From: an uncultured Acidobacteriia bacterium | GTDB lineage: Bacteria; Acidobacteriota; Terriglobia; Bryobacterales; Bryobacteraceae | Reading direction: 5' to 3' | DNA: 47,906 nt | Assembly (NCBI GenBank): GCA_903923395.1 | Contig: CAIXXM010000005.1 | Coordinates: forward strand, 1 to 47,906 | Shown here: positions 16,988 to 31,469 of the stretch, in pieces | Position numbering within the stretch: the stretch's first letter is position 1 | Layout of the letters: the number at the start of each line of letters is the position of its first letter | Notes under the pieces: model-generated | The model's database searches: none | What the model saw: only the letters and a program-made list of their open reading frames with translations | Told to the model about the DNA's origin: nothing | Position numbers and translations under genes: made by a program

Positions 16988-17043
16988 GGAAACGGGCCCT
17001 GCCGCGGGAAGATCTCCCCTGCTGCGGCTGGGCCCGTTTTTTT
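16988..17043 (+). terminator. Rho-independent terminator after the small secreted protein gene
   Basis: Ten bases after the stop, AACGGGCCC (16991-16999) pairs with GGGCCCGTT (17030-17038), and the internal segments TGCCGC and GCGGCT extend the stem. A run of seven T follows (17037-17043). The T-run abuts the stop codon of the convergent PIN toxin gene at 17042-17044, so termination occurs right at the convergent boundary. Confidence 0.88.
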
Positions 17044-17428
17044 ACCAGATTCGAACGACGTGAAACTCGTCGAAGACTGCATCCACGCTGATCACGGGCA
17101 TATTTTCCGCCTGTGATTGCGCGATCAGCATGCGGTCAAAGGGGTCTCTATGTTCCCCTGGCAGCAAGCCCGCCCGCTGCGCATGATTCAACCGGACAGG
17201 CAGATCCTTGAACGCGAGCACTGGAATCACATCCCCGAAACTCATCGCCAGGACCTCTGCCCCGGGCCACTTCCCCAAGCGCACTTTTGTCGAGATTTCC
17301 CAACCCGTCACCGCGCTGACGTAGACCTCATTTTCAAAGCTGGCAATCACCGAACGGGCCTTCGCGCTCAGCTTCGGGTCATCCGTCGCCCACCAGACAA
17401 ACGTGTGGGTATCCAGCAGCACCTTCAC
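17042..17428 (-). CDS. PIN-domain ribonuclease toxin (VapC-like)
   Basis: This 128-residue type II toxin is predicted to be an Mg-dependent RNase. The acidic PIN residues are visible in LLDTHTFVWW (D6), SAVTGWEIS (Glu), DPFDRMLIAQ (Asp) and VISVDAVFD (Asp). The start is a GTG three bases after the stop of the Phd-like antitoxin gene, giving a classical antitoxin-first operon. The LLDTHTFVWW and HRDPFDR motifs place it in the PIN subgroup usually paired with Phd/YefM-type antitoxins. It was probably acquired as a small mobile module and looks intact. Confidence 0.9.
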   Translation of the reverse strand: MKVLLDTHTFVWWATDDPKLSAKARSVIASFENEVYVSAVTGWEISTKVRLGKWPGAEVLAMSFGDVIPVLAFKDLPVRLNHAQRAGLLPGEHRDPFDRMLIAQSQAENMPVISVDAVFDEFHVVRIW

Positions 17429-17431
17429 CAG

Positions 17432-17659
17432 CTATTCCCAGGCTTCCAATTCAGCTTCCGGAAGCGGGTCAAAGTAGAAGGCATCCGGCAATGAAACAGA
17501 GTTCTTCAGCAACCCCGGCGTGCGTTTGCCCGGGCCCTTTTTCACAGGCACCAGGCGCAGCACCTCTGTCTTGCCCCGGGAAATGATGACCTCTTCCCCG
17601 CGTTCTGCCTGCTCAATGAACTTCGACAGGTGGGTTTTTGCTTCGTGAACCGTTGGCAT
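17432..17659 (-). CDS. Phd/YefM-family antitoxin
   Basis: This 75-residue antitoxin has a DNA-binding N-terminal half (VHEAKTHLSKFIEQAERGEEVIISRGKTEVLRLVP), the classic Phd fold, followed by a disordered acidic toxin-binding tail (FDPLPEAELEAWE). It is upstream of the PIN toxin by three bases and would repress the pair together with the toxin. Repeated CTTAG/CTAAG half-sites just before the start codon are the likely operator. Confidence 0.9.
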   Translation of the reverse strand: MPTVHEAKTHLSKFIEQAERGEEVIISRGKTEVLRLVPVKKGPGKRTPGLLKNSVSLPDAFYFDPLPEAELEAWE

Positions 17660-19275: not shown

Positions 19276-19611
19276 ATGAGGTGGTTCACAGGACAACTCC
19301 TCGGGCTCGTACTCTTCGCACAACTCCTGTGTCCAGTTTCCCTCTGCTTCGGTGCACCGCGCGCGCACCACTCCTGTTGCGAGCCGGATTCCAAGACATC
19401 CTGCCCTCGTAAGATGGAGCAACCCTGCCCCTACCTCACGCTGCAAACCGGCAAGGTGGAGACGAAAACGGATACCGTGCCGCCGCAACTCTCCGTCACA
19501 GTGATCCACCGGGCAGACACCCGTGCGGAGTTCCTCCCACAGAGCAGTGCCGCCGGTTACCAAACAGATCGTTCACGCCTCTACCTCACCAACCACAATC
19601 TCCTGATCTGA
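19276..19611 (+). CDS. Small secreted Cys-containing hypothetical protein
   Basis: This 111-residue protein from the ATG at 19276 (MRWFTGQLLGLVLFAQLLCP) has an N-terminal signal or anchor. A cluster HHSCCEPDSKTSCPRK-x3-PCPYL follows, and the C-terminal half lacks cysteine. The His/Cys cluster is suited to binding a metal or forming disulfides. I do not recognise the family. It is 62 bases upstream of the CCNG mini-protein on the same strand, so the two may be one transcript with a shared metal or redox theme; that link is inference. Confidence 0.6.
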   Translation: MRWFTGQLLGLVLFAQLLCPVSLCFGAPRAHHSCCEPDSKTSCPRKMEQPCPYLTLQTGKVETKTDTVPPQLSVTVIHRADTRAEFLPQSSAAGYQTDRSRLYLTNHNLLI

Positions 19612-19673
19612 CAAACAGGGAAACGCCCCGTTCGTTTCACCGTGTCCCTCAACGAAACTTCAGGAGAAAGAAA

Positions 19674-19814
19674 ATGAAACAGGTAACGACAGTTCTACTC
19701 ACGCTGGTGATGGCCTTCGGTGCCACGCTGGCCTTCGCCGCCGGTGCAGGCTGCTGCAATGGAGCGCCCTGCTGCAACGGCTCTTCCTGCTGTAACATGC
19801 ACCATAGGAAGTAA
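19674..19814 (+). CDS. 46-residue secreted Cys-rich metallothionein-like peptide
   Basis: The frame from the ATG at 19674 has a strong AGGAGAAAG Shine-Dalgarno sequence. It encodes a signal peptide (MKQVTTVLLTLVMAFGATLAFA) and a mature part of just over 20 residues containing GCCNGAPCCNGSSCCNMHH. Three CC pairs are spaced six residues apart and followed by Met-His-His. Such a Cys/His/Met density is typical of soft-metal (Cu, Zn, Hg) binding, but the protein is exported rather than cytosolic like classical metallothioneins. It is short enough to be missed by gene callers. It ends five bases before the stop of the convergent TonB receptor. No function is established; metal capture or delivery is inferred. 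Confidence 0.72.
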   Translation: MKQVTTVLLTLVMAFGATLAFAAGAGCCNGAPCCNGSSCCNMHHRK

Positions 19815-26423: not shown

Positions 26424-26675
26424 ATGCAGGTCAATCTCGGCGACGCCCGCGACAAGCTCAGCCAACTGGTTCAAGCCGTGCTGGACGGCGAGGAGGTAAC
26501 AATCTGCCGCAATGGAGAACCTGCCGTTGACCTTATCGTAGCCCGTGGCGGTAAATCAACTCCCCGCAGATTCGGAACAATGAAAGGTCGGATTGTGATT
26601 CACGATCCGGACTGGCACAGGGGGCCGCAAACAGATGAAGAACTGGCGGCCTGGATCGACGGAAAGTTCGAATAG
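26424..26675 (+). CDS. Phd/YefM-family antitoxin
   Basis: This 83-residue antitoxin has the Phd DNA-binding fold at its N-terminus (VNLGDARDKLSQLVQAVLDGEEVTICRNGEPAVDLIV) and an acidic tail (TDEELAAWIDGKFE) that should bind and block the toxin. The stop overlaps the GTG start of the PIN gene as TAGTG. It is not a close copy of the antitoxin at 17.5 kb, so the two modules are unlikely to be a recent duplication. Confidence 0.9.
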   Translation: MQVNLGDARDKLSQLVQAVLDGEEVTICRNGEPAVDLIVARGGKSTPRRFGTMKGRIVIHDPDWHRGPQTDEELAAWIDGKFE

Positions 26676-27067
26676 TGCGGCTATTGCTCGACACACAAGC
26701 CTTGCTTCTATTGGGAACCGGAGGGCTCGACGGCTTTCCCCCTAAAGCGCGCAGGTTTCTTCGCAACCCTGATACGGAACTTCTCCTCAGTTCCATCAGC
26801 ATCACCGAGCTGGCGACTAAATATGCAATTGGAAAATTGTCCGTTTCTGATGAGGATCTGCGCGAACTAATCGGCGATCTCCGGATCGACATTCTACCGT
26901 TCACCGCCAGACATGCTGCGAGGATGTTCTCACTCCCGCTTCATCATCGTGAACCGTTCGACCGCATGATTATCGCTGTGGCAATAGTGGAACGGGTTCC
27001 GCTCGTTGGAGCGGACAGTAAGTTTCCGGAAGACATCCAAGATGGTTTGGACGTTCTTTGGAAGTAG
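26675..27067 (+). CDS. PIN-domain ribonuclease toxin (VapC-like)
   Basis: This 130-residue toxin has PIN acidic residues in LLLDTQALLLL (D6), SSISITELATKYAIGKL (Glu) and HHREPFDRMIIAVA (Asp). A fourth acidic residue lies in VGADSKF. The GTG start overlaps the antitoxin stop, so translation is coupled. The HHREPFDRM motif shows the same PIN subgroup as the 17-kb toxin. The gene is intact and ends 27 bases before the convergent Hsp70 gene. Confidence 0.9.
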   Translation: MRLLLDTQALLLLGTGGLDGFPPKARRFLRNPDTELLLSSISITELATKYAIGKLSVSDEDLRELIGDLRIDILPFTARHAARMFSLPLHHREPFDRMIIAVAIVERVPLVGADSKFPEDIQDGLDVLWK

Positions 27068-27093: not shown

Positions 27094-29694
27094 CTACCCC
27101 AAAACCAGCCCCGAAGGCAGATCCTCCCCGAAGATCCTCCCCAGCGCCGCCTCGTCCTGCGCCGCATCCCCCTCCAACTGCGCGATCTGCTTCTCGTCCT
27201 TCAACTTCTCACGCACCTTCTGGAACACCGGCGCTGCCACATCCCGCACCGGATCCCCCGTCCGCCGCGCCATCGAAATCAACGCATCCGCCGACTTCGG
27301 CACATTCAAAACCGCCTCAATCCACCGCGTCGCCGCCGCCGGGTTCAGCACCTGATTCAAAGGTCCATAGAATAACTGCCGCGCCCCCAGACGGGACAAA
27401 CACCACAGCAGCGAATCATTGAACCCGGATTCCTTGCCCACCTTGATCAGCGCATCACCCAGTTGCATTCGCGTGGCCGCCGGAATCAATTCCATGCTCG
27501 ACGCCGCACGCCACATCTCCCGGTACAAACTCTGGTTGATCCGCTGCGGCTTCTTCCCCGGCTTCGGCAAAAGTTGCGGTGCCAGCCGCTGCACGATATC
27601 CGTCTGCTGATTGCGGTTCAAACCACCCGCCAGACGCCCCCAGAAGATCCACCAATCAATCTCGTTTTGGGTTTGATTTGCAAAATGCGGACCCGCCGCA
27701 TAAATCCGCCGGAACTGCTCAATCCGGAAATCATCGCCGATATGCCCAAAGCCCGGCCGCATGCAGAATCCGCCCAGATTCAACCAACGGACCTCCAGCG
27801 CGGGCGTCGCCTTGCGCAACTCCACCAGATCCAGGAACACGTCCGCCAGCCGCCGTGCCAAATCCGCGGGCCACGAATTCCGGCCCAACCCGAGCGCCGC
27901 TTCCAGCTTCGCCGGCAACTCCTCCGGTGCGAAAGTACGGGCCGCGAAACACTCCCTCACCAGCGCGGCCGCCGTATCCACCGCTTCCGCACTCACCACC
28001 GCTACAGGACGCTTCGGTGCCTCGGTCTTCGCTGCCTTCCGCAGTTGGAACTGCAAACGCCAGCGGTTGTCACTGATCTTCGAATCACACCAGGTTTCCA
28101 GCGTGCCAATCTCCGTCAAACGCGCGCCCAGCTTCACGGGCACCAGGCGCTCGCCACCCTTGCCGAAGCGGATTACTGCCTCCAGCGGAGCATGCTGATG
28201 AATCTCCTCGGCCGCGTCAAACTCCACCACCTGGCCCGGCAAGTCATCAGTGCGGCTCAACGAACTCAATAAACGGAACGCCACCGGACGGTTCGCCACT
28301 AACTGCAGATCTTCACGATCCACCTCAAGCGACGCACCCTCTTCGGCCCCGCGCGGCACCAGACAGACGGCAGACGAATCCTTCAGACCGATGTAATAGG
28401 CACGTGGCAAACCACCACGTACCAGCACGCCCGACCCCGTGGACCGGACATACGAGTAATACGCCGCGCCATTCGAAACCGCCAGATCCAGGTCCCGGTT
28501 CTCAAAGATCTCCGGACGCTTGCCGTACCAGCTTTCGAGCAGATCCGCCACGCGCTGCCGACAGATTTCCGGAATAAAGAAACCGCCGTTGAAGAGAATC
28601 GCATCCGGCACCTGGCCCGCACTCTCCAGGAACGCTGCCAGATGCCGGCTCACCGCGGGGTCGGAAACATAGGGCAAGCCAAGTTCCCGGAACAGGCTCT
28701 TCTTCTCTTCCTTCGGCTTCTCCCCGCGCGGACTTAGCGGTAGAAAACCCTCAAGCGTAAGTTCCAGCGCCTCAGCCCGGGTAATCTCCGTCTTGAGCGC
28801 GCCGCCAATCAAAGACGAACCACTGCCCAGGACGTTAATCTCCACGCTGTTGCGCCGGTCATCACAGAGCAGGATTTCCTTCGCCGCGGAACATTGCCGC
28901 CGCAGACCACTCCGCTGCCGGATCGATAACTGCCGGTTTAACTTACTCTCCGCCAGCCAGGCCAGAGTAAGATCCAGGTTATCGCCACCCAGCAGTAAGT
29001 GCTTGCCCACAGCGGTGCGCGTGAAATCGATCTTATCGCCATCCCGGCTGACACGAATCAAAGAGAAGTCCGTGGTGCCGCCGCCGACGTCACAGATCAA
29101 TACCACCTGGCCATCGAACAGTAACTTGCGCGACCGGTTGAAGTTATTCGCAATCCATGAATAGAAGGCCGCTGCAGGCTCTTCCAGCAGAGTAAGTTTG
29201 GGCAGACCCGCATCGCTTGCCGCCTGCACGGTCAACTCCCGCGCTTCTTCATCAAACGAAGCCGGTACGGTAAGCACGATATCCTGCTCTGCCAGCGGAC
29301 CGTATACACCCTTCGCATCCCACGCCTCACGGATGGTCGAAAGGAACTTAGCCGAGACTTCCACGGGAGACAGCACGCGCCCCGTCTCACCGGCGTCATA
29401 AGGAAGAATCTTCGCCGTGCGGTCTACATCAGGATTGGAAAGCCAGCTCTTCGCCGAATGCACCAGCCGCGTGGGAACCAGCGCACCCTGTTCGCGCGCA
29501 TAAGTGCCCACGGGCTGCCCTTCATCCAGAAACAGGAAAGACGGCAGAGTCTTGCGCGGCTCAACACGCCCGGCCGCCACAGGCTGCGGGATATCAAACG
29601 CATGGATCGGCGGAAAACTGGTATCTTCCGCATCGGCGCGGTCAATAAATGCAAGTGCGGAGTTTGTAGTGCCTAGGTCGATGCCAACGTTCAT
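27094..29694 (-). CDS. Large Hsp70-family protein (extended C-terminus)
   Basis: This protein of about 866 residues starts at MNVGIDLGTTNSALAF (29694); a 21-codon upstream extension has no sequence support. The actin-like ATPase shows phosphate 1 (DLGTTN, 6-11) and phosphate 2 (CDVGGGTTDFSLI). Its substrate-binding region differs from DnaK, and a long helical C-terminal domain of unknown function follows (rich in FWGRLAGGLNRNQQTDIVQ-type segments). It is third in an operon with DUF2760 and a shorter Hsp70. DnaJ and GrpE partners are absent. A specialised chaperone or scaffold role is likely, but the client is unknown. Confidence 0.88.
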   Translation of the reverse strand: MNVGIDLGTTNSALAFIDRADAEDTSFPPIHAFDIPQPVAAGRVEPRKTLPSFLFLDEGQPVGTYAREQGALVPTRLVHSAKSWLSNPDVDRTAKILPYDAGETGRVLSPVEVSAKFLSTIREAWDAKGVYGPLAEQDIVLTVPASFDEEARELTVQAASDAGLPKLTLLEEPAAAFYSWIANNFNRSRKLLFDGQVVLICDVGGGTTDFSLIRVSRDGDKIDFTRTAVGKHLLLGGDNLDLTLAWLAESKLNRQLSIRQRSGLRRQCSAAKEILLCDDRRNSVEINVLGSGSSLIGGALKTEITRAEALELTLEGFLPLSPRGEKPKEEKKSLFRELGLPYVSDPAVSRHLAAFLESAGQVPDAILFNGGFFIPEICRQRVADLLESWYGKRPEIFENRDLDLAVSNGAAYYSYVRSTGSGVLVRGGLPRAYYIGLKDSSAVCLVPRGAEEGASLEVDREDLQLVANRPVAFRLLSSLSRTDDLPGQVVEFDAAEEIHQHAPLEAVIRFGKGGERLVPVKLGARLTEIGTLETWCDSKISDNRWRLQFQLRKAAKTEAPKRPVAVVSAEAVDTAAALVRECFAARTFAPEELPAKLEAALGLGRNSWPADLARRLADVFLDLVELRKATPALEVRWLNLGGFCMRPGFGHIGDDFRIEQFRRIYAAGPHFANQTQNEIDWWIFWGRLAGGLNRNQQTDIVQRLAPQLLPKPGKKPQRINQSLYREMWRAASSMELIPAATRMQLGDALIKVGKESGFNDSLLWCLSRLGARQLFYGPLNQVLNPAAATRWIEAVLNVPKSADALISMARRTGDPVRDVAAPVFQKVREKLKDEKQIAQLEGDAAQDEAALGRIFGEDLPSGLVLG

Positions 29695-29702
29695 GGTTTG
29701 GG

Positions 29703-31469
29703 CTATCCCCGAAGATTGTATTCCAGTTTCCAGCGGCGCCCGTCGCGGGCCGCACACCAGAGTTGCAGTACGCCGGTTTCTGTAATTTCCGATTCAAAGC
29801 TCACCGGTACGACGCCCGGCTCACCGGTCAAATGCACTTCCACCGGAGCCAGTTCCTCCAACTCATACAGATTGTCTTCAATCATGGTGCCCGGCGCATC
29901 ATCCTTGCGCGCGGCAGAGCAGAAGAAGCGGAACTCCGCAGGCTCATCGACAATCAGGCCGAACTCACGGCCCGGCACCGGCGTGGTGGAGCCCTCTTCC
30001 GTGCCAAACTGCGCCACCGCCAGAGCCTTCAACGGCGCGGGCATGCCAGGCACCGCAGGCATCGCCGTCTCCACACCCACGTAATACGATTTCGCAATGC
30101 CGCCGCGGATCCGTATCCCCTTGCCCTGCCGGGCCGCCCCGTAATAGGCCGCCCCGCGCGCCACGGAATGCATCAGGTCTTCGCCCGTCAAAGGCTGCAC
30201 CGGACCAAAGCCCTCCGCCGCAAGCCACGCATCCAGCACCTGCAAAAGCCGCTGCCGCACGGAATCCGCATGCAGCACTCCACCGTTGAACAGGATGTGT
30301 GAGGGGCAGGCCAACCCGCTGGCACCGCGCCGGACAAAGCCCGATTGCGCTGCAGCCGCCTGCTGCCGCAGGAATCGCGCCAAGTGCCGCGTCACAGCCG
30401 GGTCAGACGCATAAGGCAGACCCATTTCCTGCAGCGCCGCCCGCCGCGTTCGCTCCGGCATGGTCTCGCTGTCCGTCTCCGGAAAGAACCCCGCAATCAC
30501 GTCTTCCACCTGCGCCCGCGTCAGCTTGGTGCGTATGGTGCCGCCAATCAGACTGGAACCCTTGCCAAGAATCGTCACAGGCACTTCTTCCGGCGCATCC
30601 GGACCCAGCAACCGCTCCTTCGCAATCCGGCAATTACTCCACAGCGCCTGCATCTGGAACGCATCAATCCGGATATTCCGCGCGGTAAGTTCCGCCGCAG
30701 CCTGGTGCGCCAGCGCGAGGTCAATGTTATCCCCGCCCAGCAGGATGTGTTCCCCCACCGCTACGCGTTCGAGTTCCAGTTCCCCGCCGCGCTCTGTAAC
30801 CGCGATCAGCGTAAAGTCCGTGGTGCCGCCACCGATATCCACCACCAGCACCAAATCGCCCGGGCGCACACGCTCCCGCCAGTCCGGATGCCGTTCCAGC
30901 CACGCATAGAACGCGGCCTGCGGCTCCTCCAGCATGGTCACGGCCGGATAGCCCGCCTGTAAAGCGGCCCTCTGCGTCAGATCCCGGGCCACGGCATCGA
31001 ATGACGCCGGTACGGTGATCAAGACCTGCTGCTCAGCGAACGGTGCTTCGGGATGTTCCGCATCCCACGCGGCCTTCAAGTGCGCGAGATACTCAGCGGA
31101 AGCCTCCACGGGCGAGACCTTCGGAATACCCTCCGCGGCTTTCCAGGGCAGAATGGCGGCAGTGCGGTCCGCAGCCGGATGCGAAAGCCAGCTCTTGGCG
31201 GATGCTACGAGACGGCTCGAAACCTCTGCGCCTCGCCTTTGTGCCAGTTTGCCTGTGACGTATTTCGGTGCCTGGTTCCACGGCAGCGCCGTAGTACCCG
31301 GCGGAAAATCATTTGCCCCCGGAATGTAGAGGAAGGAAGGCAGCAGCGTCTCGGCCTGCACTTCATTTGCACTGACGAGCTGCGGAATCGCCGCCAGAGA
31401 CACGCCGCCCGCATCCGTGTAGGCCAGCGCGCAGTTCGTGGTCCCGAGATCGATCCCGATCGAAATCAT
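29703..31469 (-). CDS. Short Hsp70-family protein
   Basis: This 588-residue Hsp70 homologue starts MISIGIDLGTTNCALAYTD (phosphate 1 at residues 7-12), with phosphate 2 in VDIGGGTTDFTLI. It ends soon after a short beta-rich substrate-binding-like region (GVLQLWCAARDGRRWKLEYN) and lacks the helical lid of DnaK. It sits 2 bases after DUF2760 and 8 bases before the larger Hsp70, so all three are co-expressed. The two Hsp70s are clearly divergent from each other and look like fixed partners rather than recent copies. Confidence 0.9.
   Translation of the reverse strand: MISIGIDLGTTNCALAYTDAGGVSLAAIPQLVSANEVQAETLLPSFLYIPGANDFPPGTTALPWNQAPKYVTGKLAQRRGAEVSSRLVASAKSWLSHPAADRTAAILPWKAAEGIPKVSPVEASAEYLAHLKAAWDAEHPEAPFAEQQVLITVPASFDAVARDLTQRAALQAGYPAVTMLEEPQAAFYAWLERHPDWRERVRPGDLVLVVDIGGGTTDFTLIAVTERGGELELERVAVGEHILLGGDNIDLALAHQAAAELTARNIRIDAFQMQALWSNCRIAKERLLGPDAPEEVPVTILGKGSSLIGGTIRTKLTRAQVEDVIAGFFPETDSETMPERTRRAALQEMGLPYASDPAVTRHLARFLRQQAAAAQSGFVRRGASGLACPSHILFNGGVLHADSVRQRLLQVLDAWLAAEGFGPVQPLTGEDLMHSVARGAAYYGAARQGKGIRIRGGIAKSYYVGVETAMPAVPGMPAPLKALAVAQFGTEEGSTTPVPGREFGLIVDEPAEFRFFCSAARKDDAPGTMIEDNLYELEELAPVEVHLTGEPGVVPVSFESEITETGVLQLWCAARDGRRWKLEYNLRG

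Follow-up and report, generated by a model that had tools for sequence, protein, structure and literature searches.

The window, by which we mean the whole stretch of DNA analysed here (47,906 nucleotides), contains two adjacent small genes on its forward strand, the features of which are collected in Table 1. The second (gene 2) is the open reading frame (ORF) 19674-19814 (+), the translation of which is MKQVTTVLLTLVMAFGATLAFAAGAGCCNGAPCCNGSSCCNMHHRK (46 residues). Judged by eye, its N-terminus presents a Lys, a hydrophobic core and A-F-A preceding the mature part, which is about 23-24 residues long, contains six Cys and two His and, after A-F-A, reads AGAGCCNGAPCCNGSSCCNMHHRK. An earlier note on this DNA had described a 46-residue peptide with a signal-like start, three CC pairs plus MHH and a good Shine-Dalgarno sequence, and the ORF is indeed as described. 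The same note had pointed to a preceding small Cys/His protein, which is present and ends 62 nt upstream (gene 1, hereafter the leader). A promoter scan found none, and terminator-like sites (three versus 0.7 expected) are left out of the argument. Elsewhere in the window, we noted by eye a PIN-like toxin ORF adjoining a Phd-like antitoxin ORF (17042-17659, -), a second PIN-like ORF (26675-27067, +) and tandem Hsp70-like ORFs (27094-29757 and 29703-31469, together 27094-31469, -).

Table 1 Features of the leader and mini-protein genes in the window
Feature	Positions	Strand	Basis or remark
Leader gene (gene 1), 111-residue Cys protein with signal-like N-terminus	19276..19611	+	ATG 19276, stop 19609-19611
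HHSCC...C...C cluster of the leader, proposed metal-sensing motif	19366..19428	+	Last Cys 60 residues from C-terminus
Conserved C-terminal end LYLTNHNLLI of the leader, proposed arrest/stalling segment	19579..19608	+	Information content
Intergenic region, 62 nt	19612..19673	+	Between leader and gene 2
Shine-Dalgarno AGGAG of gene 2	19662..19666	+	7 nt before ATG
CC mini-protein gene (gene 2)	19674..19814	+	ATG start, TAA stop, 46 codons plus stop
Signal peptide of gene 2, residues 1-22	19674..19739	+	Judged by eye
Mature CC-x4-CC-x4-CC-NMHHRK part of gene 2	19740..19811	+	Translated ORF, alignment with homologues

A six-frame search of the window for CC-x4-CC-x4-CC gives a single occurrence, against a mean of 0 in 60 Markov-1 random sequences, and a peptide search of the window's own genome (G000) returned one match. 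Together with the homologues described below, which retain the three CC pairs with identical or almost identical gaps but differ in the residues that fill these gaps, this count rules out a chance ORF. Searched against Pfam and NCBIfam, neither the peptide nor the leader reaches a cut-off, and no metallothionein family is among the matches of the window's peptide and three relatives (NCBIfam) or of the window's peptide and four relatives (Pfam). Thus, the term “metallothionein-like” used in the earlier note is apt as a description of the peptide but does not hold as family membership. A sequence search of the PDB with gene 2 gave three antibody chains at E 0.09-0.72, which we regard as meaningless.

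The peptide does have homologues with a conserved CC pattern, on the existence of which the earlier note had staked its proposal. Related peptides whose Cys spacing is identical or nearly so were found in the window's order, which we take to be Bryobacterales, in a second family of its class (f8, presumably Acidobacteriaceae; phylum Acidobacteriota), in Verrucomicrobia and in Rhodospirillaceae. A peptide search of 60 relatives gave one clear homologue, in G053 (E 1e-6); the other matches were at E 0.0019 or worse, and the three-CC loci that were opened held no convincing peptide. A pattern scan of public genomes returned at least 118 stretches, most of them of low complexity or in another frame; among those listed, L113 (Verrucomicrobia) and L149 (Rhodospirillaceae) are clear relatives and L130 is perhaps one. 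The latter, at L130:6483-6653 (-), is the ORF CCGGGACCGGGICC of a Spartobacteria genome, without a clear ATG and, by eye, opposite a glutaredoxin-like ORF.

An alignment of four peptides was then matched in 6 of the 396 genomes of a draw from the phylum, i.e. in the window's and in five of one f8 genus, so the unit is patchy, and none of 18 same-genus genomes gave a peptide match; absences in these genome searches are soft, since scoring covered a subset of the first-look candidates (e.g. 18 of 43 in G000). With an alignment of eight peptides, 11 of 200 f8 genomes were matched; among these matches, two weak ones with no start or leader (G546 and a second place in G481, G481:C8) were judged chance. 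In the window's order the same alignment matched 17 of 257 genomes. Ten of these matches are real by reading (the window, G053, G811, G870, G916, G920, G922, G921, G806 and G879) and seven were judged chance, five by their reading frames (L211, L213, L214, L216 and L217) and two, L210 and L218, because a scripted search detected no Cys ORF there.

In all eight peptides of the alignment (A2) the six Cys are invariant and spaced exactly x4, x4, and the aligned homologues retain the hydrophobic N-terminal segment. The wider set is looser: the exact x4, x4 spacing is seen in 10 of 20 f8 peptides and in 4 of the 13 counted in the order, the remainder having x3-x5 gaps or other Cys patterns. The CC pairs are expanded to six in G563, G580, G644, G655 and G633 and to five in G829, and the peptides of G608, G663, G480, G898 and G900, among others, have irregular Cys patterns. 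Peptides with five to six CC pairs, mostly with a His/Lys tail, were noted at L163, L164, L193, L194, L202 and L233, and in G430 (L185) the peptide frame stays open beyond the third CC pair, for a total of about 366 codons.

The peptide gene is linked to the leader gene. A leader lies 62-99 nt upstream of the peptide at the 11 f8 loci first found through the peptide, in G053 and in the window. Of eight further peptide loci in the order, seven have a leader with its characteristic end, and the eighth, in G922, has the start of a leader with no proper end; at the CC peptide of L149 no such leader was found. A leader profile built for f8 (A4) found 23 places in 21 of 329 f8 genomes, and at 21 of them the conserved end of the leader is present and a short Cys-rich peptide, its N-terminus signal-like, begins 68-100 nt further on (in G621 the gap is 187 nt and the start codon GTG). 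At the remaining two places the leader is cut by the contig end (L199) or the match is weak and partial (L200). Nine of the 21 units are new relative to the peptide search.

In the window's order, a second profile (A5, of which the window's leader is itself a training row, matching at E 2e-35) gave 45 places in 41 of 250 genomes at E up to 0.01. Thirty of these 45 places were returned as loci. Nine of the loci belong to the training set of the profile; we opened the remaining 21, one of which (G922) was known already from its peptide. Of the 20 other leaders, 10 precede a Cys peptide (G846, G900, G902, G805, G865, G829, G883, G898, G775 and G804), 8 precede an OEP gene and 2 are unclear (G803 and G809). 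Several of these leaders are near-duplicates (G900/G902, G804/G805 and G782/G783/G785), and therefore the locus counts do not represent independent events. The two-gene unit proposed in the earlier note is thus recovered, as leader plus Cys peptide, at the 21 f8 places and at further loci of the order. Some leaders look broken or incomplete, namely those of L245 (G922), L237 (G804, which carries a stop) and L239 (G809); G922 and G804 still keep a peptide gene next to the damaged-looking leader. In G803 (L246), a leader-like ORF is followed by a different signal-like small protein ending in GCCRNCCATPE, possibly a third output.

The eight OEP genes lie 15-68 nt downstream of their leaders (G779, G780, G782, G783, G785, G796, G876 and G895), and all eight ORFs were identified as OEP by Pfam. 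The pump further downstream is CusA/CzcA (NCBIfam TIGR00914, above cut-off) in all four genomes tested (G779, G780, G782 and G796), and the adaptors of G779 and G895 score above the threshold of a general RND adaptor model, and their matches to CusB stay below the threshold of that model. Members of the leader family thus head metal efflux operons, the Cys peptide being the other output of the family.

How is the leader itself built? Its ends read VFxLKDDLRI in f8 and are mostly YLRNRVLLI-like in the window's order, where that of the window, LYLTNHNLLI, is among the more diverged. Information content over the last 10 residues averages 3.97 bits per position across 20 f8 leaders and 3.19 bits across 18 leaders of the order, against 1.1 (1.13) by chance; the preceding 10 hold 2.89 and 1.62 bits, respectively, and the body 21-60 residues before the end 1.2-1.8 bits (chance 1.1), all values having been computed on kin sequences that are not independent. 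At least four Cys fall within the last 100 residues in 37 of 38 leaders, the exception being that of G633, cut by a contig end. CxxC is present in 12 of 20 f8 leaders and in 2 of 18 leaders of the order, and the leader of the window has CC, C and C without CxxC. A hydrophobic N-terminus is visible by eye in the aligned leaders. By BLASTP, the leaders of the window and G053 match at E 0.14, which is not significant alone; their kinship rests instead on the shared end, Cys cluster and position and on profile A5.

The distance between the Cys cluster and the end is nearly constant. A cluster 54-67 residues before the end is present in 41 of 43 leaders, i.e. in 18 of 19 in f8, 17 of 18 peptide leaders of the order and 6 of 6 efflux leaders, by a rule for “cluster” that was set after the raw numbers had been seen (the raw last Cys falls at 54-67 in 36 of 43). 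The 43 comprise 19 of the 21 f8 leaders (without G633, which is cut, and G621), 18 peptide leaders of the order (without G804 and G922) and 6 of the 8 efflux leaders (without G783 and G785). Shared ancestry may account for part of this spacing.

These features bear on what the upstream gene does. The earlier note had hinted at a two-gene capture unit, and both proteins could be structural partners, exported together as a metal-capture or transfer pair in which the upstream protein is a chaperone and not a leader. Such a pair would fit the joint occurrence of the two genes at 21 of 23 f8 places and at the order loci, as well as the Cys present in both proteins, to which most leaders add His. 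However, the upstream protein is poorly conserved apart from its Cys and its last 10-20 residues, it ends abruptly in the conserved segment, and its relatives stand before efflux genes in place of the peptide, all of which makes a structural pair unlikely. Thus, the pairing claimed in the earlier note stands, but the upstream gene looks more like a regulatory leader than a second capture protein, because of its conserved C-terminal end, its poorly conserved body, the near-constant Cys-to-end spacing and the relatives that precede OEP genes.

We then examined the RNA between the two genes. Each of the 20 f8 intergenic regions folds more stably than its shuffled versions do on average (mean z -2.3, with 12 regions below -2), and in 14 of the 20 the Shine-Dalgarno pairs with the first 25 nt at a probability of at least 0.5; the others are G121, G096, G480, G663 and G563b (0-0.18) and G563 (0.49). 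In G603, for example, AUCUCCUUU after the leader stop pairs with AAAGGAGAU on the Shine-Dalgarno side. When arms were swapped between 24 sequences (f8 including G621, plus the window, G053 and L113), own arms bound at -12.4 kcal/mol versus -10.0 for swapped arms, a difference seen in 1 in 20000 permutations (P 5e-5). Within f8, the P value is 5e-5 for all 21 sequences, 0.00035 for the 10 places of one genus and 0.17 for the other 11. RNAalifold on six f8 sequences found weak covariation, with both sides changed in 1 of 14 pairs and an unfavourable covariation term. MAFFT, run on nine of the f8 regions, set the 5' arms in the wrong place, and that alignment was left unused. Together, these results lend moderate support to translational gating in f8 by a helix that masks the Shine-Dalgarno.

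The window behaves differently. Its intergenic region has no significant RNA structure (two runs gave z +0.58 and +0.48), the pairing probability of its Shine-Dalgarno with the first 25 nt is 0.00, and its own arms bind worse than most swapped arms (rank 38 of 47). Across nine intergenic regions of the window's order, the mean z is -0.13, with two below -2 (G053 and G916). Since the helix fails in this order, any gate at the window would be something else, and Rho-dependent control (as in CruR) or plain co-transcription may be considered as candidates.

What, then, is the peptide for? Beyond the efflux operons, in L149 (L149:1-2240) the CC peptide follows a gene for a copper chaperone, identified as PCuAC by Pfam, and in L113 the gene order is leader, CC peptide and HMBD protein. 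On the other side of the CC peptide in L149, ArsR-like, arsenate reductase-like and MIP channel-like ORFs were seen by eye. From the density of ligands, the expansion of CC pairs and this context, we conclude that gene 2 probably encodes an exported thiolate metal buffer; and from the leader's conserved end, the near-constant distance of its Cys cluster from that end, its relatives in efflux operons and the RNA helix of f8, that it is probably produced under the control of a metal-sensing nascent leader in a bicistron. Like a small metallothionein, the peptide would soak up metal in the periplasm or cell envelope. The buffered metal is presumably a soft one, most likely Cu(I), perhaps Ag, Zn, Cd, Hg or As; copper is our best guess because of the PCuAC, HMBD and Cus/Czc-type neighbours of the relatives. 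A point against a buffer is that the periplasm is oxidising, so that the six Cys may form disulfides.

The same chemistry suggests a thiol-disulfide mini-protein of the envelope, the CC pairs of which would cycle between thiol and disulfide or act as bait for oxidants. Adjacent Cys residues exposed to an oxidising compartment and the L130 candidate, with its glutaredoxin-like ORF on the opposite strand (by eye), are consistent with such a redox role; but the five to six CC pairs, irregular Cys patterns and His/Lys tails of many peptides suit metal clusters better, and the neighbours and leader relatives accompany PCuAC, HMBD and CusA/CzcA, so that we consider this role quite improbable.

Alternatively, the peptide might be the precursor of a modified metallophore, i.e. 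a bufferin-like RiPP matured by an MNIO enzyme, given that bufferins are exported copper-chelating Cys peptides (PMC12452194). An MNIO gene is found somewhere in 17 of 22 searched genomes with the unit. Yet PF05114 is unmatched in the window's genome and in four others of the 22; in the three genomes compared that have unit and MNIO gene on one contig, the distance between them is about 170 kb (G357), 370 kb (G481) and 510 kb (G430); and at 9 of 12 opened loci no MNIO-like ORF is seen by eye among the neighbours. On these grounds, in a test of modifying enzymes that covered MNIO (PF05114) alone, we regard such a precursor as very improbable. Equally far-fetched is an exported signalling or antimicrobial Cys peptide, or another role in the envelope: the peptide is small, Cys-rich and patchily distributed and has a signal-like start, but its neighbours vary, no immunity or transporter partner was seen by eye at nine loci, and its leader family is common to metal efflux operons.

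Returning to the metal buffer under a nascent sensor, we propose the following sequence of events, in which we infer metal binding and the identity of the metal, arrest, the direction of the response and localisation. The leader would be exported during its own translation. The ribosome tunnel and translocon together span about 60 residues. With the ribosome at the conserved C-terminal end, the Cys cluster, some 58-61 residues behind, would thus just reach the far side of the membrane, i.e. the Cys would emerge across the membrane as the end is being translated. Metal bound at the cluster would alter the dwell time of the ribosome at the leader end, and this dwell time would decide on translation or transcription of the downstream gene. 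In most members of f8, the gate would be the RNA helix, in which bases after the leader stop cover the Shine-Dalgarno of the peptide gene.

More broadly, we tentatively put forward, as a possibility somewhat short of probable, that these peptides form a family of exported mini-metallothioneins whose production is adjusted to need by a co-translational metal sensor of a new class, characterised by a Cys-to-end ruler, a non-proline arrest end and, as outputs, Cys mini-proteins and CusCBA-type pumps. If true, nascent-chain metal sensing would exist in a version with different ends and a new output. The Cys mini-proteins, of about 36-73 residues, are unlisted in Pfam and NCBIfam, and gene callers may miss them. 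Because the spacing is nearly constant, changing the linker length would test the nascent-chain idea directly. In the literature searched, we found no report of this peptide or leader, which is not proof of absence.

We compared both genes with known systems. The bacterial metallothioneins SmtA/BmtA and MymT are very short, Cys-dense thiolate metal buffers, and gene 2, likewise very short, Cys-dense and presumed to buffer metal through thiolates, differs from them by its signal-like start and presumed export and by the lack of a match to a metallothionein family. The copper storage protein Csp1 is a four-helix bundle of more than 100 residues, and membership of gene 2, with only 46, was rejected. 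SilE uses His and Met as ligands, unlike gene 2, which has Cys pairs and no Pfam match. SilE/PcoE are described as periplasmic metal sponges (PMC5008109), and like them gene 2 would be a small, presumably exported metal buffer whose relatives' leader family stands beside a Cus-like efflux system. Bufferins Buf1 (DUF2282) and Buf2, MNIO-modified exported copper-binding peptides (PMC12452194), share with gene 2 a signal peptide, Cys motifs and presumed metal buffering outside the cytoplasm; unlike them, gene 2 has no DUF2282 match (Pfam) and the window's genome no MNIO match.

The closest parallel for the leader is with CutF (Rhodobacter capsulatus cutF-cutO; PMC9973294) and CruR (Bordetella pertussis; PMC9426467), DUF2946 metal-sensing leaders alongside which CopL and CzcI are also named (PMC9973294). 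Copper elicits a response from both leaders, with opposite sign in CutF and in CruR; with their proline-rich or RAPP ends, they are the nascent exported metal sensors for which tests were found in the literature searched (PMC9973294, PMC9426467). By profile, the leader does not belong to DUF2946: in Pfam, the leaders of the window, G053, G397 and G779 had no DUF2946 match; a PF11162 search of 19 genomes matched at no leader's place; and the L113 leader, which has the only proline-rich end among the leaders (RPPVPPPRA), matches DUF2946 below cut-off (E 0.027). With the profile unmatched and the ends different, membership was rejected, and our claim is limited to a likeness in the way of working with CutF/CruR. 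The differences lie in the end, which is VFxLKDDLRI or YLRNRVLLI-like in place of proline-rich or RAPP, in the output, here a Cys mini-protein, and, compared with CutF, in the lack of a helix in the window's lineage. As with CutF/CruR, the first gene encodes a small Cys protein, its N-terminus signal-like by eye, and is followed by a gene predicted here to handle metal; relatives of the leader lie directly upstream of metal-homeostasis genes, the next gene at the window being the Cys peptide. As with most CutF-like genes, the intergenic region is mostly shorter than 100 nt; as in cutF-cutO, a helix masks the downstream Shine-Dalgarno, here in most of f8; and as with many CutF-like genes, leader relatives precede OEP and CusA/CzcA genes (PMC9973294). 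Finally, as in CruR, the spacing from Cys motif to C-terminal motif is nearly constant, 54-67 residues here and 45 in CruR (PMC9426467). By analogy, the leader is best read as CutF/CruR-like.
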